Position numbers and translations under genes: made by a program
From: Anastrepha obliqua
Lineage: Eukaryota > Arthropoda > Insecta > Diptera > Tephritidae
Reading direction: 5' to 3'
Length of the DNA: 64,000 nt
Assembly: GCF_027943255.1 (NCBI RefSeq)
Contig: NC_072895.1
Span: 87,732,001 to 87,796,000, forward strand
Shown here: positions 12,739 through 57,745 of the stretch, in pieces
How the letters are laid out: every line of letters starts with the position of its first letter
How positions within the stretch are numbered: position 1 is the first letter of the stretch
The notes under the pieces: model-generated
Told to the model about the DNA's origin: nothing
What the model saw: the letters and a program-made list of their open reading frames with translations, nothing else
The model's database searches: none

Positions 12739-15118
12739 ATGCTAATGGAACCGGTGCACGTTGTTAAGAGACGCAAACTGTCGTTGTCACAGTCGCATAG
12801 CACAGCGTCGATCACAACGACAACTTCTATGGACAGCGTCACAGTTGCCACTACAACACCGCCGAATACACCGCCCACACCACCACTCAATATGATGATG
12901 ACCACCGCGCGCAGTCACCATAATAACACAAGCAGCAACAGCAGTAGCATCAATGGACGTACTATGGAAAACACGACTTGTACGCTGATTGCCGCCAGCT
13001 CAGCGCCCACGCTCACGACTACCACAATGGCCAGCTCATTGTTGAGTACCGCTCAGCACACACCTTCATCGAGTAGCGCTACAACAGCAGCAGCAGCTGT
13101 TGCTGCCGCGGCCGCCGCTGCAGTGGCTGCTGTGGCAGCTGCAGGCGCCAATTCCGCAACGCCCGCCATCGCCGTCACCAATAACGTCGTACCAGATCAC
13201 TATAGCCTTCGTTGGAATAATCATCAGAATCATATATTGCGCGCCTTTGACGCACTGCTACAGACCAAAACATTGGTGGACGTGACGCTGGTGTGCGCCG
13301 AAACTAGTTTACATGCACACAAAATGGTGCTATCTGCGTGTTCACCGTTCTTTCAGCGCGTGTTTGCGGAGACGCCGTGCAAGCATCCCGTTATCGTGTT
13401 GAAGGACTTTCAGGGCTGGGTGGTGCAGGCGATCGTAGATTTTATGTATCGTGGTGAGATCAGCGTGCCACAAGAACGGCTGCAGACGCTCATACAGGCG
13501 GGAGAGTCATTGCAGGTGCGCGGTTTGGTTGAGAGCTCGGTGCCAGAGCATACACCGACGCCAGCCGCATCACCTGATGACTTTGGCATGATCGATACGT
13601 CGCTAATGTCACCTGAGCTGGGGCGTTGTTCAAGTTTCGATGAGGAAACTCCATCAATGGTCACCGCTGGCTCTAAGGTGATACTGCCATCGAGGCTCTT
13701 TGGCTCGTCAGCGCGCCGCGAACGTGAACGCAAACGTAAGCGCGAGCGTACATTCGAGCATGACTTCGAACGGGAAATAGAAAGCGATCAAGATTTGCCG
13801 CTTGATACGACCTTCAATTCAGATATCTGTACTTCACCTATGCCCAGACGTAAGCAAGCGCGCCCTAGACGTCGCTCGGGCGATCTACCACTCGATATGG
13901 CGAGCAAACCAGCCACGCCTGCGCCTATAGAAGAGCCATCACAAACACAACCCCTGCCTTTGACGCTAGATGAGCAATTAGAGAAAACGCATGCGGAGCG
14001 CTTAGAAGCTTTGAAGACTGTGATCAAAAGTGAGATAGCCGAGTCGATGGACGAGGATGAGGGTACTCGTCGCGACGATAGCGGCAACGGTAATGACAAC
14101 CACGATAACAATGAATCACATGAAAAAAATGGAAATGCATACCAATCGAGTGAAGAACAGCACAACAGTTCACGCTTGGATGGAACACTTTCACCAGAAG
14201 CACTCAATGCGCAACACTCAATGGACATAGAAGATGAGGAGCCAGAAGACGATATTGAAAACGAAAATGAACACGAAGATGAGAATGAGAATGAACCAAT
14301 ACCCGAAGCCGAAGATATTGAAGAGCTTATTAACGCCACCAATGAGTTACGTCGCAAATCGATGTCCAACCTTTCGGAGGGACCGGAGGATCTCTGCACA
14401 ACGAAAAAAGATCAAAATTCTATGAGTGGCAGCCACTCGAATAACGACACTGATGGTAATTCTGCGAATAATAACAATAACAGCAACAAAGTCAATAATA
14501 ACAATCGCATTGTATTATCGCTGAAAGACATACGACAACTGAATAAGCCATCCTCTTCATCCACACCCAACTCATCGAATAACATGCACCCTTTTGCGAC
14601 GGCCAGCCTGCGCGATCTACGGATCGATCGTGCCGTAAGCGCAGCAGCAGAGAATCAGTGCAAAATGGATGCACTAGAGGCGCAAATGCATGCAGCCGCG
14701 GCAGCCGCAGCGGCAGCTGCAGCAAATGGCGAAAATCCGTTTCAACACATGGAACATCAGATGGATCTATCAATAGCGGCCGCCGCAGCAGCCGCCGCTG
14801 TCTCACATCAACAGTCACGCGAACGTGATCAGGCAATGCAACGAGAACAACGAGAATTTCAAGAGCAACATAACGCCTATGCGAATAGTATACTTGGGCA
14901 AATGGGTATGCCGGGTATGCCGCCCTTCGGACCGCCAGGTGGGCCCATACCGCACGAACGTCTAGAAGAAAGTATGAATCGATTGAGTAAAGAGTTTACG
15001 CCGACCTCACCGATGAGTCTACCCACCCATTTCAATCCACCTGATGGACAACCGCATCCACGATCACCGCTACCATTTCCGGGTATGTCCTCAGCACTGG
15101 CGCTCACGCCACCACACA
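12739..15118 (+). CDS. lov: lov coding exon 1: BTB/POZ domain and low-complexity region
   Basis: This encodes residues 1-793 of a nuclear BTB-HTH transcription factor best matched to Drosophila jim lovell, which is known from mutants affecting nervous-system function and behaviour. The BTB domain is at residues 155-265 (SLRWNNHQNHILRAFDALL to SLQVRGLVES), with the LRWNNHQ signature of the fly ttk/bab class. Before it lies a Ser/Thr-rich leader (KRRKL near residue 11) and an Ala tract (about 115-148). After it come a basic cluster (about 325-335), RRKQARPRRRSGD (about 369), an acidic Glu/Asn stretch (495-530), poly-Asn (about 577) and two Ala runs (652-664, 680-688). The BTB domain normally mediates dimerisation and corepressor contacts. 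ATG 12739 is the first AUG of the exon; a second Met follows two codons later. The exon ends at donor GTGAGT (15119), phase 1. The ortholog name rests on remembered similarity, not a search. Confidence 0.92.
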
Positions 15119-36961: not shown

Positions 36962-37099
36962 TGTTTAGCTTGGATTCACCGCTCGGTCTCTTTCCGCCCG
37001 GCATTGACCCTGGCAAACTCTACAATCCGCTAATGGAAATGTCCGATCCGCGTGTCATGCCTGGCGACCATCCACCGCCCTTTCTGAAAGGCAAAAAAA
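36962..37099 (+). CDS. lov: lov coding exon 2
   Basis: A 138-bp exon encoding residues 794-839 plus the first base of codon 840. The acceptor is TTTGCTCTTTACAG (AG at 36960-36961) and the donor is GTAAGT at 37100. Both boundaries are phase 1, so it is symmetric and could be skipped without breaking the frame. It reads MFSLDSPLGLFPPGIDPGKL then YNPLMEMSDPRVMPGDHPPP and FLKGKK, a Pro-rich linker between the BTB half and the DNA-binding half. There is no known domain. Codon use and splice signals are convincing, and the exon is needed to keep the phase consistent with exon 3. Confidence 0.88.

Positions 37100-47711: not shown

Positions 47712-47746
<35 letters not shown>
47712..47746. repeat. 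(CT)n microsatellite forming the polypyrimidine tract of lov intron 2
   Basis: TCTCTTTCTCTCTCT... is an almost perfect CT repeat of about 35 bp. It ends 15 bp before the acceptor AG (47761-47762) of the last lov exon, so it supplies most of the pyrimidine tract for that splice site. Confidence 0.9.
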
Positions 47747-47762: not shown

Positions 47763-48613
47763 TACCACGTCCAAAGGGCCAACACTCGGCGCCACGTGGC
47801 GGTCCACCACGCTCTTGGACCAACAATGAGCTCACCGATGCACTGCAGCATGTATGGAACAAGAAGATGACCACCTCGCAGGCATCACGCGTCTTCGGCA
47901 TTCCCTACAACTCATTGCTGATGTATGTGCGTGGTAAGTATGGCAAAAGCCTGAAGCTGGAACAACTACGCAAAGACTGCATCAGCGGGCCACCAGTTGA
48001 AATGCTACAAATCGGTCTCGGCGGTGGCAAAAACAAGGATGAATCTCGTAAAGACAAAGCAGCTAACAGAAATGCAGAGAACGCTGCTAAAAATAATGCC
48101 GAATTAGACTTGGGCATACCACTGCCCGGCATGGTGGCCGGCAGCAACGGGCCAAGTGGTCTACGTAGCGCCAGCTCAGAACCGGACTTAATTGGCTGTC
48201 CCAACTCGCTGTTCGGTCCCTTCTCCGGCTCTTTCTATCCCGACTTCCCAGGCGGTTTCGCCGGTCTGCCACTGAGCATGCTCAATCTGCTACCACCAAC
48301 GGATCGACACCAACCGCCCGGCGCCGGTCTTACACCTTTGCACCATCTAGGCATGGATGAGGATTGCAAATCGGATCGTTCGAAACAATCGTCTTCGCTA
48401 GGAGATGACGATTTCGCAGCCGGTGCCGCTTTAGCTGCTGGCGTACAACCGCTCGCGCTCAACCGCAACGATAACGAACGCCGCTCTGTTGGTGGTGGTG
48501 GTGGTGAAATGCTAGCGAGTGCAGGTTCGATAGGTGCGCCGCCACCGCCACCACCTCCAATGAGCGCTGCCGTCGGTGGCGGTGCGCAGCCGAATGGCGG
48601 TATGCAAGATTGA
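47763..48613 (+). CDS. lov: lov coding exon 3: pipsqueak-type HTH DNA-binding domain
   Basis: This encodes residues 840 (last two bases) to 1122 and a TGA at 48611-48613. The psq helix-turn-helix is at residues 858-912: SWTNNELTDALQHVWNKKMT, TSQASRVFGIPYNSLLMYVR and GKYGKSLKLEQLRKD. In this family the domain binds DNA and the IPYNSL...GK segment forms the recognition part. Downstream lie LRSASSEPDLIG (about 949), a Gly/Pro-rich region and Pro/Gly runs near the end. The acceptor is preceded by a CT microsatellite. The three exons sum to 3369 nt, exactly 1123 codons. The frame does not end in a typical UTR: coding-like sequence continues past the stop (see the next entry). Confidence 0.93.
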
Positions 48614-49039
48614 AATTTCTGGCGGGATTGGGCCGCCAACCCCATGTTTTTCCCGCCAAATGACACATACGATGTGGAAGAGGCTATGAATGGCGGCATT
48701 GGTTTCGGTGGCCATCACCAGCACCAGCAGCAACACAACGATGTGACGTCTACAGAGCGCAACGCCAACTGTGGCAGTAGTGGTGGTGGTGGCGCCATGG
48801 CTAATGTCGCACGTGCGGCACATCAATTTCGTGAATTCAATCAAAATCTTTACATGACCAGACGTAAACTGAAACGGCTGCGCCAGCGACGTTTCACGTT
48901 GAATAGCCGTGCAGCGGAGAACGGCAATGGTGCGACGAGCGGTACCGGTGGCGGTGGTAGTGGCTTTATGGCGCTGCAAATGGGACCGCCGCCGTCGGCG
49001 TTGACGTTGCCCTTGCCGCCAGCGGTTATACGCACTTAG
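48614..49039 (+). CDS. lov: Candidate stop-readthrough extension of lov
   Basis: Directly after the TGA, in the same frame, 141 sense codons follow before TAG (49037-49039). The stretch begins NFWRDWAANPMFFPPNDTYD and has coding-like character: His/Gln and Gly runs interrupted by complex sequence, and a basic segment MTRRKLKRLRQRRFTLNSRA that could act as a nuclear localisation signal. Base composition stays GC-rich like the exon and drops sharply to AT-rich after 49040, as at a true coding end. The context is GAT-TGA-AAT, not the strongest leaky TGA-C context. Readthrough would give 1264 residues. Alternatives are a sequence or allele error at the TGA, or a spliced isoform, but no good short intron is visible. 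Confidence 0.6.
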   Translation, partial: NFWRDWAANPMFFPPNDTYDVEEAMNGGIGFGGHHQHQQQHNDVTSTERNANCGSSGGGGAMANVARAAHQFREFNQNLYMTRRKLKRLRQRRFTLNSRAAENGNGATSGTGGGGSGFMALQMGPPPSALTLPLPPAVIRT

Positions 49040-49143
49040 TTTAATTTTATTGTAATGTTGTAATCTAAATTATGTTCAATTACTGTAAAGTATAAGTGAA
49101 GAGATGAAGAGGCGCAAAGAGCGCAGGCGATCTAGAAAATAAA
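49040..49143 (+). other. lov: lov 3' UTR with first poly(A) signal
   Basis: AT-rich sequence follows the distal TAG. The first AATAAA is at 49138-49143. Further AATAAA signals at 49493-49498 and 49800-49805 could give longer 3' UTRs. Which is used cannot be told from sequence. Confidence 0.55.
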
Positions 49144-50530
49144 TTATACATAAATTAACTAAAATAATTAGTGAAAATTTGGGGGAGGAAGTTGAGTTGA
49201 GAAATGTTGCATAATTAAATTATTACTTGTATAACTGTGAATCGATGTGAATATGTAATGAGTATGCAATATTTTGTTTTGGTTTTATTTACATATATTT
49301 CAAAAATACAGACTTTGTATGGAAATTAAGAAAATTCAATTTTTTTGTTTTTGGTTCAAGGTATAGTATTTTTGCTTTACACACCAACAAAACGAAAACA
49401 ACGATATTTTCTCTATTTTGTATTTATTAATTATGTACAAAAGATGTATTCTTCCATTTTACTTAAAATTTGTTTAGCTGATTTTTATACAAAATAAAAG
49501 TGAATGTATATATTTGTACAGTGATTGCAAATAGTGCACATCTGAAGCATTATGTTTCCAAAAAAATTAACAAAAGTGTTCTAATGGCAATTCACCATTA
49601 AGCGCGAGTAATTTGGCGGCGCAGCATTGGCAAGTAACCACAGCAAGACAACAGCAAAGTGTCTAGATCGCACGAAAAAACGATAGCACCTCAATATTTG
49701 GACCTGTTTTAACTATTTTGCTTTTTTTAATTTTCATAATTTTTGTTTTATAAAAATATAGCGCATTGGCATACAAAAACAACATAAATCTATAGTATAA
49801 ATAAAGGTCTATGCTAATATACATATGAAACTATATAAAACCTTATAAATTTCCAATTTTATACAAAAATTATAAAAATACACGAATTCAAGCTTTTTAT
49901 TCAGCACTTCGCCAGTAGTACCGTCTCTCTGACTTTACATGGACTTTTCAAACGACCCTCGTACAGATAGTTAAGTAATGAAACGCGTAAAGGCCAAAAT
50001 AAAGATTTTCAGCTTTCAAAATCATTTTTTAATATGTCATAAAAAAAGTTACTTAAAAAAAATTCAAGTAAACAATTTTATAGCCCATTAAACTTTTATT
50101 GAAGTCGCTCAAAATTTTAGCTGATTTTTGATAATTTTTTCTCCCCACAAAATGTCGTGCATTTGTTATATGGAGAAAATGCGCAACACCGTCATAGAAG
50201 AAAGTTATAAAAAAACGATGGGATTTTTAGCAACTTCAAACTTGCACTTTATCAGCCTAGTATTTAAATTTAGCTATAAAACTGCATGGCCAACTTTTTT
50301 TTTTAATTCTGAATAAAAAGCTTAAAACTAAATTTTTCAATTTCTTAAACTTTTTTTTTTGTTTTTGCGTTAAGTTTGAAATTTGGGTTTATGTGGTATT
50401 TGTTAGGCAATGAGCCATATTTTTATAAAAAAAATTAAATTATAAAGTTTTTTATTGTAAATTTTTATAATTTTTGCATAAAGTTTGCAATTTGGGTTTG
50501 TGTGGGTTTTGTTAGATAATAGGCTATAAC
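49144..50530. other. Long 3' UTR or downstream flank
   Basis: AT-rich, transposon-poor sequence with additional AATAAA signals at 49493 and 49800. No recognised gene; an open frame at 50128-50316 has no domain. Confidence 0.5.
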
Positions 50531-50540
50531 TTGTACTTGT

Positions 50541-50850
50541 ATGGCGCTTACACCCTTTTTGGGCGTTTGGCCGAGCTCCTCCTCCTATTTGTCGCGTGCG
50601 TCTTGATGTCGTTCCACTTATGCAGGTACCTACAGTTTCAAGCCGACTCCGAACGGCAGATATTTTTTATGAGGAGCTTTTTCATGACAGAAATACACTC
50701 GGAGGTTTGCCATTGCCTGCTGAGGGGCGACCGCTATTAGAGAAAACTTTCTTCAATTTGGTCTTTCACCGAGATTCGAACCTACGTTCTCTCTCCGAAT
50801 TCCGAATGGTAGTCAACCCATAGCCAACCCATTCGGTTACGGCGCACAGC
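50541..50850 (-). mobile_element. tRNA-derived SINE, full length
   Basis: Minus strand. The head, the complement of CATTCGGTTACGGCGC near 50830-50845, contains an A-box-like segment. The B box is the complement of GATTCGAACC (50773-50782). The body has the complement of CGACTCCGAACGGCAGATAT (about 50643) and GGCCGAGCTCCTCCTCC (50568-50584). The tail, the complement of GGCGCTTACACCC, is at about 50543. A clear whole copy, about 310 bp. Confidence 0.88.
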
Positions 50851-50854
50851 AATT

Positions 50855-52380
50855 ATATACTTATACTTCTATTAATAAATAAGAAGCTCTCAAAAAATAA
50901 AATAAAAACAGTCAAATCTGCTCAAAATGTTGAGGGTCCACCGTTTTTCGCATACCCTAGGCATTTTGTTGCTGCGCTGCCATGGTAATTTGGCAATGCT
51001 ATGTTGCCAAATTGCTTGTGCGTAATTTTCAACAGCTCGGCACGTAAAAAAAAATCAAAGACTCACATTTCATTAAAAAAAATATTTAGTACAGTTATCG
51101 CTATATAACTGGAATTTTGAAATTTAATTTTATTTGCTAAATTGTGAATGGAAATAAAATTTTATTTCCAAAAAACTCTCCAAACATTTGCCTAAATCCA
51201 AATTTACTACCAGGAAGTGCACACTTTTATTTCAACCCAATATTGATAAGTATTTCTTAACCTACTCATTTGTGTGAAGCCCACTAATTAATTGTACTGT
51301 AAACCACTTTCACTTTGTGCGCTATTTCGCTCCACTGTAACCTTATAAGTATGAACAATTTTAGTTTTTGGTGCTTTTAGTTCCTATTTTTTGTTGAGGC
51401 GATGTAAAAACATTCCCAAAAATTTGCGTATGCTAGTATTTAGTATGTTTTTATGTTTTATACACTGTAAACTATTAAATAAATTTAAACAATCAAATTT
51501 TGAAAAGCTTCTAAAGCAAAAATTCTATGTTACACAATTTTTTACAAAAAGAAGTTTTCGTTCTTTGTGAGTTATAAATATTCCTAATAAGTTAATTTTT
51601 CATTAAATCTAATAATTAGTTATTAATTATAAACTTACAATTCATTGTTTTCAATCACTTCATCACAAATAATCAAAATAATTTAATAATTTTGTATGGC
51701 AATATTTGTAAATACTAAGTAATATTTATATACCAACATTAGTATTAACACAAAAATAAATGGAAACATAATATTTAAAATTCAAACAATAAACAAAAAA
51801 TGTAAAAGAATGTATAAAAAATTGCATTTGACAGTTGATTGTCAGCAAAAGTTATAAAAAATTTTGTGTAAGTGGCCGATGGAGATTATTGTAAAAGCTA
51901 TAGTATTATGATTGTACCAAAATTTTTAAACAAAAACAAAAACTAAAATATATTATTGAGTAAGCTAATGAATCATTATCATAATTTGAGTAAATAAACT
52001 CTAATAAAAATTAAAAACGCACACAATTTCTTATAAGTTTTTTGTAAAGACAAAAGCAGTGGATAAAGGACTACTGAAGTTATACCAGCAAAATAGGCAA
52101 AGAGCAGGGGTGTGTTCGAGCCATGAAAATAATTACAATCTCATTTCTTACTCTAATCTGCTGCAATAATGCAGAAGTTGTTTTTAACGGATTATGCAAT
52201 TTGAAATAGCCCCAAAAATGCATGGAAATTATGAACTACTTAATGACTGAATGGAAGATAGAGAAAGGCAGTGGAAAATACATTAAAAAAATATAAAAAA
52301 ATGCGTGAAAAATACGCGAGAAATCAATCTAGCCATGTCCGTTAGTTCGTCTATCCGAGCACACGATAACTTGAGCAAAA
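50855..52380. other. AT-rich flank, no recognised gene
   Basis: Low-complexity AT-rich DNA without coding or RNA features and almost no transposon motif. Confidence 0.5.
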
Positions 52381-52384
52381 GTTG

Positions 52385-52800
52385 AGACAAGAGGTTTAAA
52401 AAACTCATAACCCTCCTCAAGGATAAGAATGCTCACGCGCATTCTCACAGGCCACTGTAGATTGCGTAGTTTTCTGCATATGGTCGGGATTTGGTCAACG
52501 GACTCTTGTCGTTTCTGCGAGCAATCTCAGGAGACTCCATTGCACCTTCTTCTGTCGCCTTTGCGACTAATCCTGGGAGACTCCAATGCACCTTCTTCTG
52601 TTGTTTTTACGACTAGTCCCAGGATACTCCAATGCATCTTCCCCTGGAATGTAGCGCAATAGCACGGAGAAGCCTGAGACATCTTGGTCAACTGCAGTCA
52701 GAAGAAAAGCACATACATCCAGACCAACCCAGCTCTATCTTAAGTTTAATAAGAAAACTGGGTCGGGATGAGGTGCTTTGATGAGCAGAGGGCACATCTT
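52385..52800 (+). mobile_element. LINE C-terminal fragment with internal 46-bp duplication
   Basis: Plus strand. LTRILTGHCRLRSFLHMVGI followed by DSCRFCEQSQETPLHLL is the LTGHCxL...CxxC...H region at the C-terminus of I/R1-like LINE ORF2. A segment within the following cysteine part has been tandemly triplicated with a 46-bp period (GGAGACTCC at 52530 and 52576, GGATACTCC at 52622), altering the end of the frame. Confidence 0.75.
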
Positions 52801-57159: not shown

Positions 57160-57745
57160 AATCAATCCACAAATTCTGTATGTTGACATTTTTTTTCACT
57201 TTTTTTTGAAGTTTTCTGGATGTTAAAAATAATAACGCAAACTTTATGTAGTTAAAAAATAAATTTGTTTGCAAGTAAATTTGTTTGGTATTATTTATTA
57301 AATTTTTTTTAAATCACAAATTTTTTTTTCAATTTTGCTGGATGTTAAAAATATTAACGCAAACACAAATTCTGTATGTTGACATTTTTTTCCTTTTTTT
57401 TGAAGTTTTCTGGATGTTAAAAATAATAACGCAAACTTTATGTAGTTAAAAAATAAATTTGTTTGCAAGTAAATTTGTTTGGTATCATTTATTGAATTTT
57501 TTTTTTTAAATCTCAAATTCTGTATGTTGACAAATTTTTTATTTTTTATTTTTTTAATTTTTCTGGATACTAAAAATATTAACACAAACTTTATGTAGTT
57601 AAAAAATTTATTTATTTGCATGTACAATTTTTTTTCAATATTATTTTCTAAATTTTTTTCACATCACAAATTCCACATATTGACAATTTTTAATTAATTT
57701 TTTTTTTTAACATTTACTGGATGCTAAAAATATACAAAAAATAAA
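57160..57745. repeat. Tandem array of about 148-bp units
   Basis: The unit starts with CACAAATTCTGTATGTTGAC, then a T-rich run, then TCTGGATGTTAAAAATAATA and a block around ACTTTATGTAGTTAAAAAAT. Starts are near 57168, 57315 (truncated after about 50 bp), 57364, 57512 and 57665, so about four units, one broken. Units differ by a few percent, and the last is most diverged. A 109-codon frame across it is an artefact. Confidence 0.8.

Follow-up and report, generated by a model that had tools for sequence, protein, structure and literature searches.

In the tephritid fly Anastrepha obliqua, the gene lov appears to carry a conserved leaky UGA, and we consider translational readthrough of this codon to be, with a probability of roughly 0.85, the best explanation for the features found in the window, which is the whole stretch of 64,000 nucleotides that was analysed. 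Most ribosomes would stop at the UGA, giving rise to the annotated BTB/pipsqueak protein of 1122 residues, and a minority would place a near-cognate amino acid at this position and translate a further 141 codons. The longer Lov product generated in this way would carry a mostly disordered tail that contains a basic helix and ends in the fixed sequence PP(A/T)VIRT. Readthrough of lov had been proposed in a sequence-only reading of the same DNA and it is supported by homologues of the extension that share its frame and its end, by the position of the first stop, which is conserved, and by the D. melanogaster stop as read from a printed primer, a TGA-A followed by Asn. That ribosomes pass the stop codon of lov, and how frequently they would do so, is what we infer from these comparisons of sequences.

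The lov gene and the open frame beyond its first stop codon

In the host genome assembly (836 Mb, 204 contigs), the window contains three coding exons of lov on the forward strand, which upon joining encode a protein of 1122 residues up to the first stop. The first of these exons (12739–15118) harbors the BTB domain (Pfam E 5.4e-23) and ends at the donor CACACA/GTGAGTG, with its start agreeing with the A. ludens protein P0003 by length (1121 residues compared to 1122 in the window). The middle exon (36962–37099; MFSLDSPLGLFPPGIDPGKLYNPL...) joins both of its neighbours in frame, and the last exon, which up to the first stop extends from 47763 to 48610, contains the HTH_psq domain (Pfam E 5.8e-14), with the joined frame being open to the TGA. 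The presence of both domains and the orthology to jim lovell identify the gene as lov, a BTB plus pipsqueak-domain factor, whose best match is isoform X1 of the protein jim lovell from Anastrepha ludens (1121 residues; 99% identity over 67% of 425 query residues). A tract of about 17 copies of the dinucleotide TC (47712–47746) immediately precedes the 3' splice site of the psq exon, and tandem repeats are found downstream of the gene at 57360–57733 and 52523–52641, with units of 153 and 46 nucleotides, respectively.

The proposed readthrough site, a TGA at 48611–48613, is followed by 141 sense codons (48614–49036) and by a TAG at 49037–49039, as had been described in the sequence-only reading, with the TAG succeeding the sequence PPAVIRT. 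The further observations of this reading equally hold: the peptides NFWRDWAANP and RRKLKRLRQRRF are both found in the extension, the context of the stop is TGA-A (GAT TGA AAT) and the break in composition coincides with the TAG and not with the TGA, as the GC fraction is nearly the same in the part of the psq exon before the TGA (0.561) and in the extension (0.563) but falls to 0.266 in the 861 nucleotides past the TAG. The open length by itself is weak evidence for coding because frame 0 of the antisense strand is open too, as reflected in the number of stops in the three frames of either direction (0, 6 and 7 in sense, 0, 4 and 7 in antisense). The extension stays open in 22 of 2000 dinucleotide shuffles and the larger region 48414–49239 in 2 of 2000. 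The appearance of the extension as coding is underlined by its codon usage: a model derived solely from the BTB exon gives sense frame 0 the best score (0.096, compared to values between -0.072 and -0.273 in the other five frames), a score that was reached by none of 1000 mononucleotide shuffles. On the opposite strand, an open frame of 185 codons (48512–49069) overlaps with the lov tail and the extension; it scores lower than the sense frame in codon usage and is without a Pfam match.

Past the TGA, an AATAAA first occurs on the forward strand at 49138–49143, and neither this motif nor ATTAAA is present between 48001 and 49137. Since the first polyadenylation signal is located past the extension, the mature mRNA should include it.

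Conservation of the extension

A search with the extension only, at E-values up to 10, matched four proteins among 321 candidates, namely P0077 (1.2e-48), P0078 from Ceratitis capitata (9.6e-39), P0079 (1.3e-30) and P0080 (1.6e-5). The similarity is concentrated in distinct parts of the sequence. A block near the beginning (MFFPPNDTYDVEEAMNGGIG, 48644–48703) is identical in P0077 and P0078, P0079 starts inside this block, and P0080 shares only its residues MFFPP. A basic segment predicted to be helical (FREFNQNLYMTRRKLKRLRQR, 48827–48889) is nearly identical in all four proteins, which have the motif FREFNQNLY(M/L)ARRKLKR(L/Y)RQR in common, with the window containing a T in place of an A, and all four end in PP(A/T)VIRT. 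Relative to the window, the homologues contain 4, 7, 6 and 7 insertion or deletion events, and the frame is kept through to the common end, which is supporting but not independent evidence, since the homologues are open frames by construction. The conserved blocks and the shared end in four homologues indicate, at the level of proteins, that the second open frame is under protein-coding constraint, and we regard the comparative evidence for the extension as strong.

The extension contains no Pfam domain at E-values up to 1, its homologues show Pfam matches below the cut-off only, and a comparison to PDB sequences yielded 11 weak matches, the best with an E-value of 0.17. The extension is not contained in any full-length protein at E-values up to 10 among 2513 candidates, and none of the 19 pattern matches in viral contigs and 32 in prokaryote contigs, which might have originated from stray fly DNA, is a relative of it, nor did phage records contain a match.

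Structure prediction of five extension sequences by AlphaFold resulted in a weak model (mean pLDDT 57.2, pTM 0.24), which is mostly disordered except for one helix at residues 62–102, with the best-defined part at 71–90 (pLDDT 81–88). The basic tail that had been anticipated from the sequence is thus modified in its details: the basic segment is present, but the predicted helix is located in the middle of the extension and not at its end. The tail might affect DNA binding, nuclear retention or the choice of partners. As Lov is already nuclear (PMC3631165), a bare import signal in the tail would add little.

Conservation of the first stop codon

To the place of the first stop speak 74 relatives of the lov tail, found in the 7981 candidates sharing most words. 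The extension is absent from all of them (with phmmer finding nothing at E-values up to 10 and a best BLASTP E-value of 1.6), which suggests that current lov gene models are without a conserved C-terminus, in a database that shows cluster representatives, so that an extended isoform could sit hidden in a cluster. Fifty-eight of the 74 proteins contain NG within their last eight residues and a terminal D, E or N, with the final residue being D in 59. Of the first 40, 36 contain NG within the last ten residues together with a terminal D or E; the four exceptions are P0007 (which ends in QQD), the partial record P0019, P0041 and P0042. As judged from these protein ends, the first stop is located at a conserved place and is old. 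It is for the same reason unlikely that the TGA would be a sense codon elsewhere, which had been named as an observation that would speak against readthrough.

The stop codon itself was observed in two species, in one of them via a primer, and is TGA in both. The primer used for the cloning of D. melanogaster lov contains, after an apparent added BglII site, the sequence GTTTCAATCATGCCCGGTC (PMC3631165), whose reverse complement reads ACC GGG CAT GAT TGA AAC, corresponding to Thr Gly His Asp stop Asn. Its counterpart in the window is CAA GAT TGA AAT, corresponding to Gln Asp stop Asn. If our reading of the primer is right, the stop codon, the following base and the next residue would thus agree in both flies.

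Alternative explanations

We have considered other mechanisms that could account for the second open frame. In a dicistronic transcript, translation would start anew at the ATG at 48644, which is codon 11 of the extension, and lead to a separate protein of 131 residues, as might be suggested by the Met at this position that is common to P0077, P0078 and P0080 and by the Ceratitis record, which names the frame as a protein of its own. However, homologues would start at a Met in any case since programs calling open frames need one. The context of this ATG (AACCCCATGT) contains a C at position -3, which makes for a poor start, and the mechanism would require reinitiation after a frame of 1122 codons, which is rarely efficient. 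Readthrough and dicistronic genes can be separated by asking whether the stretch from the first stop up to the first in-frame ATG is constrained (Jungreis et al. 2016, PMC5100048). With the homologues starting only at an internal ATG of the extension, the comparison of codons 1–10 reaches codon 1 only, which leaves room for a second cistron. This codon encodes Asn in both the window and, in the primer-based sequence, D. melanogaster. Overall, we regard independent initiation as improbable. We assign an even lower probability, close to negligible, to the removal of the TGA by alternative splicing with the extension being joined in frame. Donors would be available in form of thirteen GT dinucleotides in 48450–48613, including GGTATG at 48600, but an acceptor would be needed in 48614–48643 and the first AG past the TGA is only found at 48679–48680, inside the conserved block, and its use would lose codons 1–22, much of which is identical in P0077 and P0078. 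Splicing around the TGA, whose detection would have contradicted the sequence-only reading, is therefore not supported in this check, which considers GT-AG introns and the presence of AG.

The identity of the stop as UGA would also be compatible with A-to-I editing to UGG or with the insertion of selenocysteine, since this codon could be used by both routes. Yet, none of the six Rfam matches in 48000–51000 (E-values up to 10, with none reaching the gathering score) is a SECIS element and there is no unusual RNA fold: the folding of the region 48614–48713 (z 0.05, with 98 of 200 shuffles being as good) and of 48560–48760 (z 0.46, 133 of 200) is ordinary, and we consider such recoding very unlikely. 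The same results provide no support for a stem-loop of the type found in headcase, and any genuine leakage must have another origin. Finally, the frame could be an artefact, reflecting a GC-rich untranslated region with a fortuitously open frame, an assembly error or a nonsense mutation of recent origin, for which the open antisense frame and the described fraction of open shuffles could be invoked. In this case, the homologues would not be expected to share the same end, nor would the position of the stop be common to many insects. On the basis of these two observations, we reject a chance frame and a recent nonsense mutation and consider the artefact, to which we give hardly any weight, as refuted in the main.

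Discussion

Translational readthrough of lov would add to a well-populated class. The expectation that hundreds of fly genes use this mechanism is borne out by the 328 cases annotated in FlyBase by 2015 (PMC4528330), and readthrough was predicted for 75 out of 703 transcription factors of the fly (PMC8417969). The stop most often read through in flies is UGA (PMC4528330), with TGA-A being a weaker context than TGA-C (PMC8417969), and this weaker context together with the ordinary downstream folding counts against readthrough in lov. With other conserved fly readthrough genes (PMC5100048, PMC4528330), lov shares a conserved open second frame after a TGA, a conserved first stop, a coding signal that ends at the second stop and the character of a nuclear regulator with low-complexity stretches between conserved blocks. 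In contrast to these genes, lov contains TGA-A instead of TGA-C and no predicted RNA structure, its host is a tephritid and constraint was judged at the level of proteins. A related case is vvl/dfr (PMC8417969), which also encodes a transcription factor, whose readthrough extension is long, largely disordered and conserved near its end. It differs in belonging to another gene family and in containing UAG-C with a predicted stem loop, and its authors set out on experimental verification.

The closest known counterpart is found in lov itself. A note in proof in the 2013 paper on the gene mentions a minor D. melanogaster transcript, RE, with 'additional 3' protein coding sequences' (PMC3631165), thus describing extra sequence beyond the common protein of the same gene. 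The note makes no mention of readthrough, and the likeness is one of description and not of sequence. By its wording and timing, lov-RE is probably the same thing, namely FlyBase's readthrough model. In this respect, the proposal of readthrough for lov is supported by our analysis but it is probably not new for the gene, and the window might perhaps just contain the tephritid orthologue of a catalogued readthrough gene. The main texts of PMC3840789, PMC5100048, PMC4999894, PMC4528330 and PMC8417969 do not mention lov, and literature searches returned no match pairing jim lovell or CG16778 with readthrough, in both cases with supplementary gene lists being outside the scope. These searches found nothing on stop codon readthrough in Tephritidae or, by name, on lov-RE, lov-PE, lov-RF or lov isoforms. 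No title on lov readthrough was among those retrieved for lov, readthrough and Drosophila or for lov, Jungreis and Drosophila, and readthrough terms had no match in further lov papers.

As a phenomenon, lov would add one well-supported case to several hundred. Our study offers a testable second isoform of Lov, a nuclear factor with effects on the behaviour of flies, and its UGA-A stop, at which no RNA structure was detected, makes a useful case for what else causes stops to leak. On a more tentative note, and at somewhat less than even odds, readthrough might be an old module of higher flies, made up of the basic helix and the fixed PP(A/T)VIRT end, that predates the split between tephritids and drosophilids and that equips some cells with another Lov binding DNA or partners differently, whose dose would be set by the leaking of UGA-A in the absence of a detectable stem-loop.

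A separate observation concerns the short form of the protein. The residues preceding the stop (48599–48610; NG..QD, NGSD and similar) are unusually conserved from flies to ants in the 58 proteins of this kind among P0003–P0076, and this end may serve the short form as a C-terminal signal that would become buried upon readthrough.
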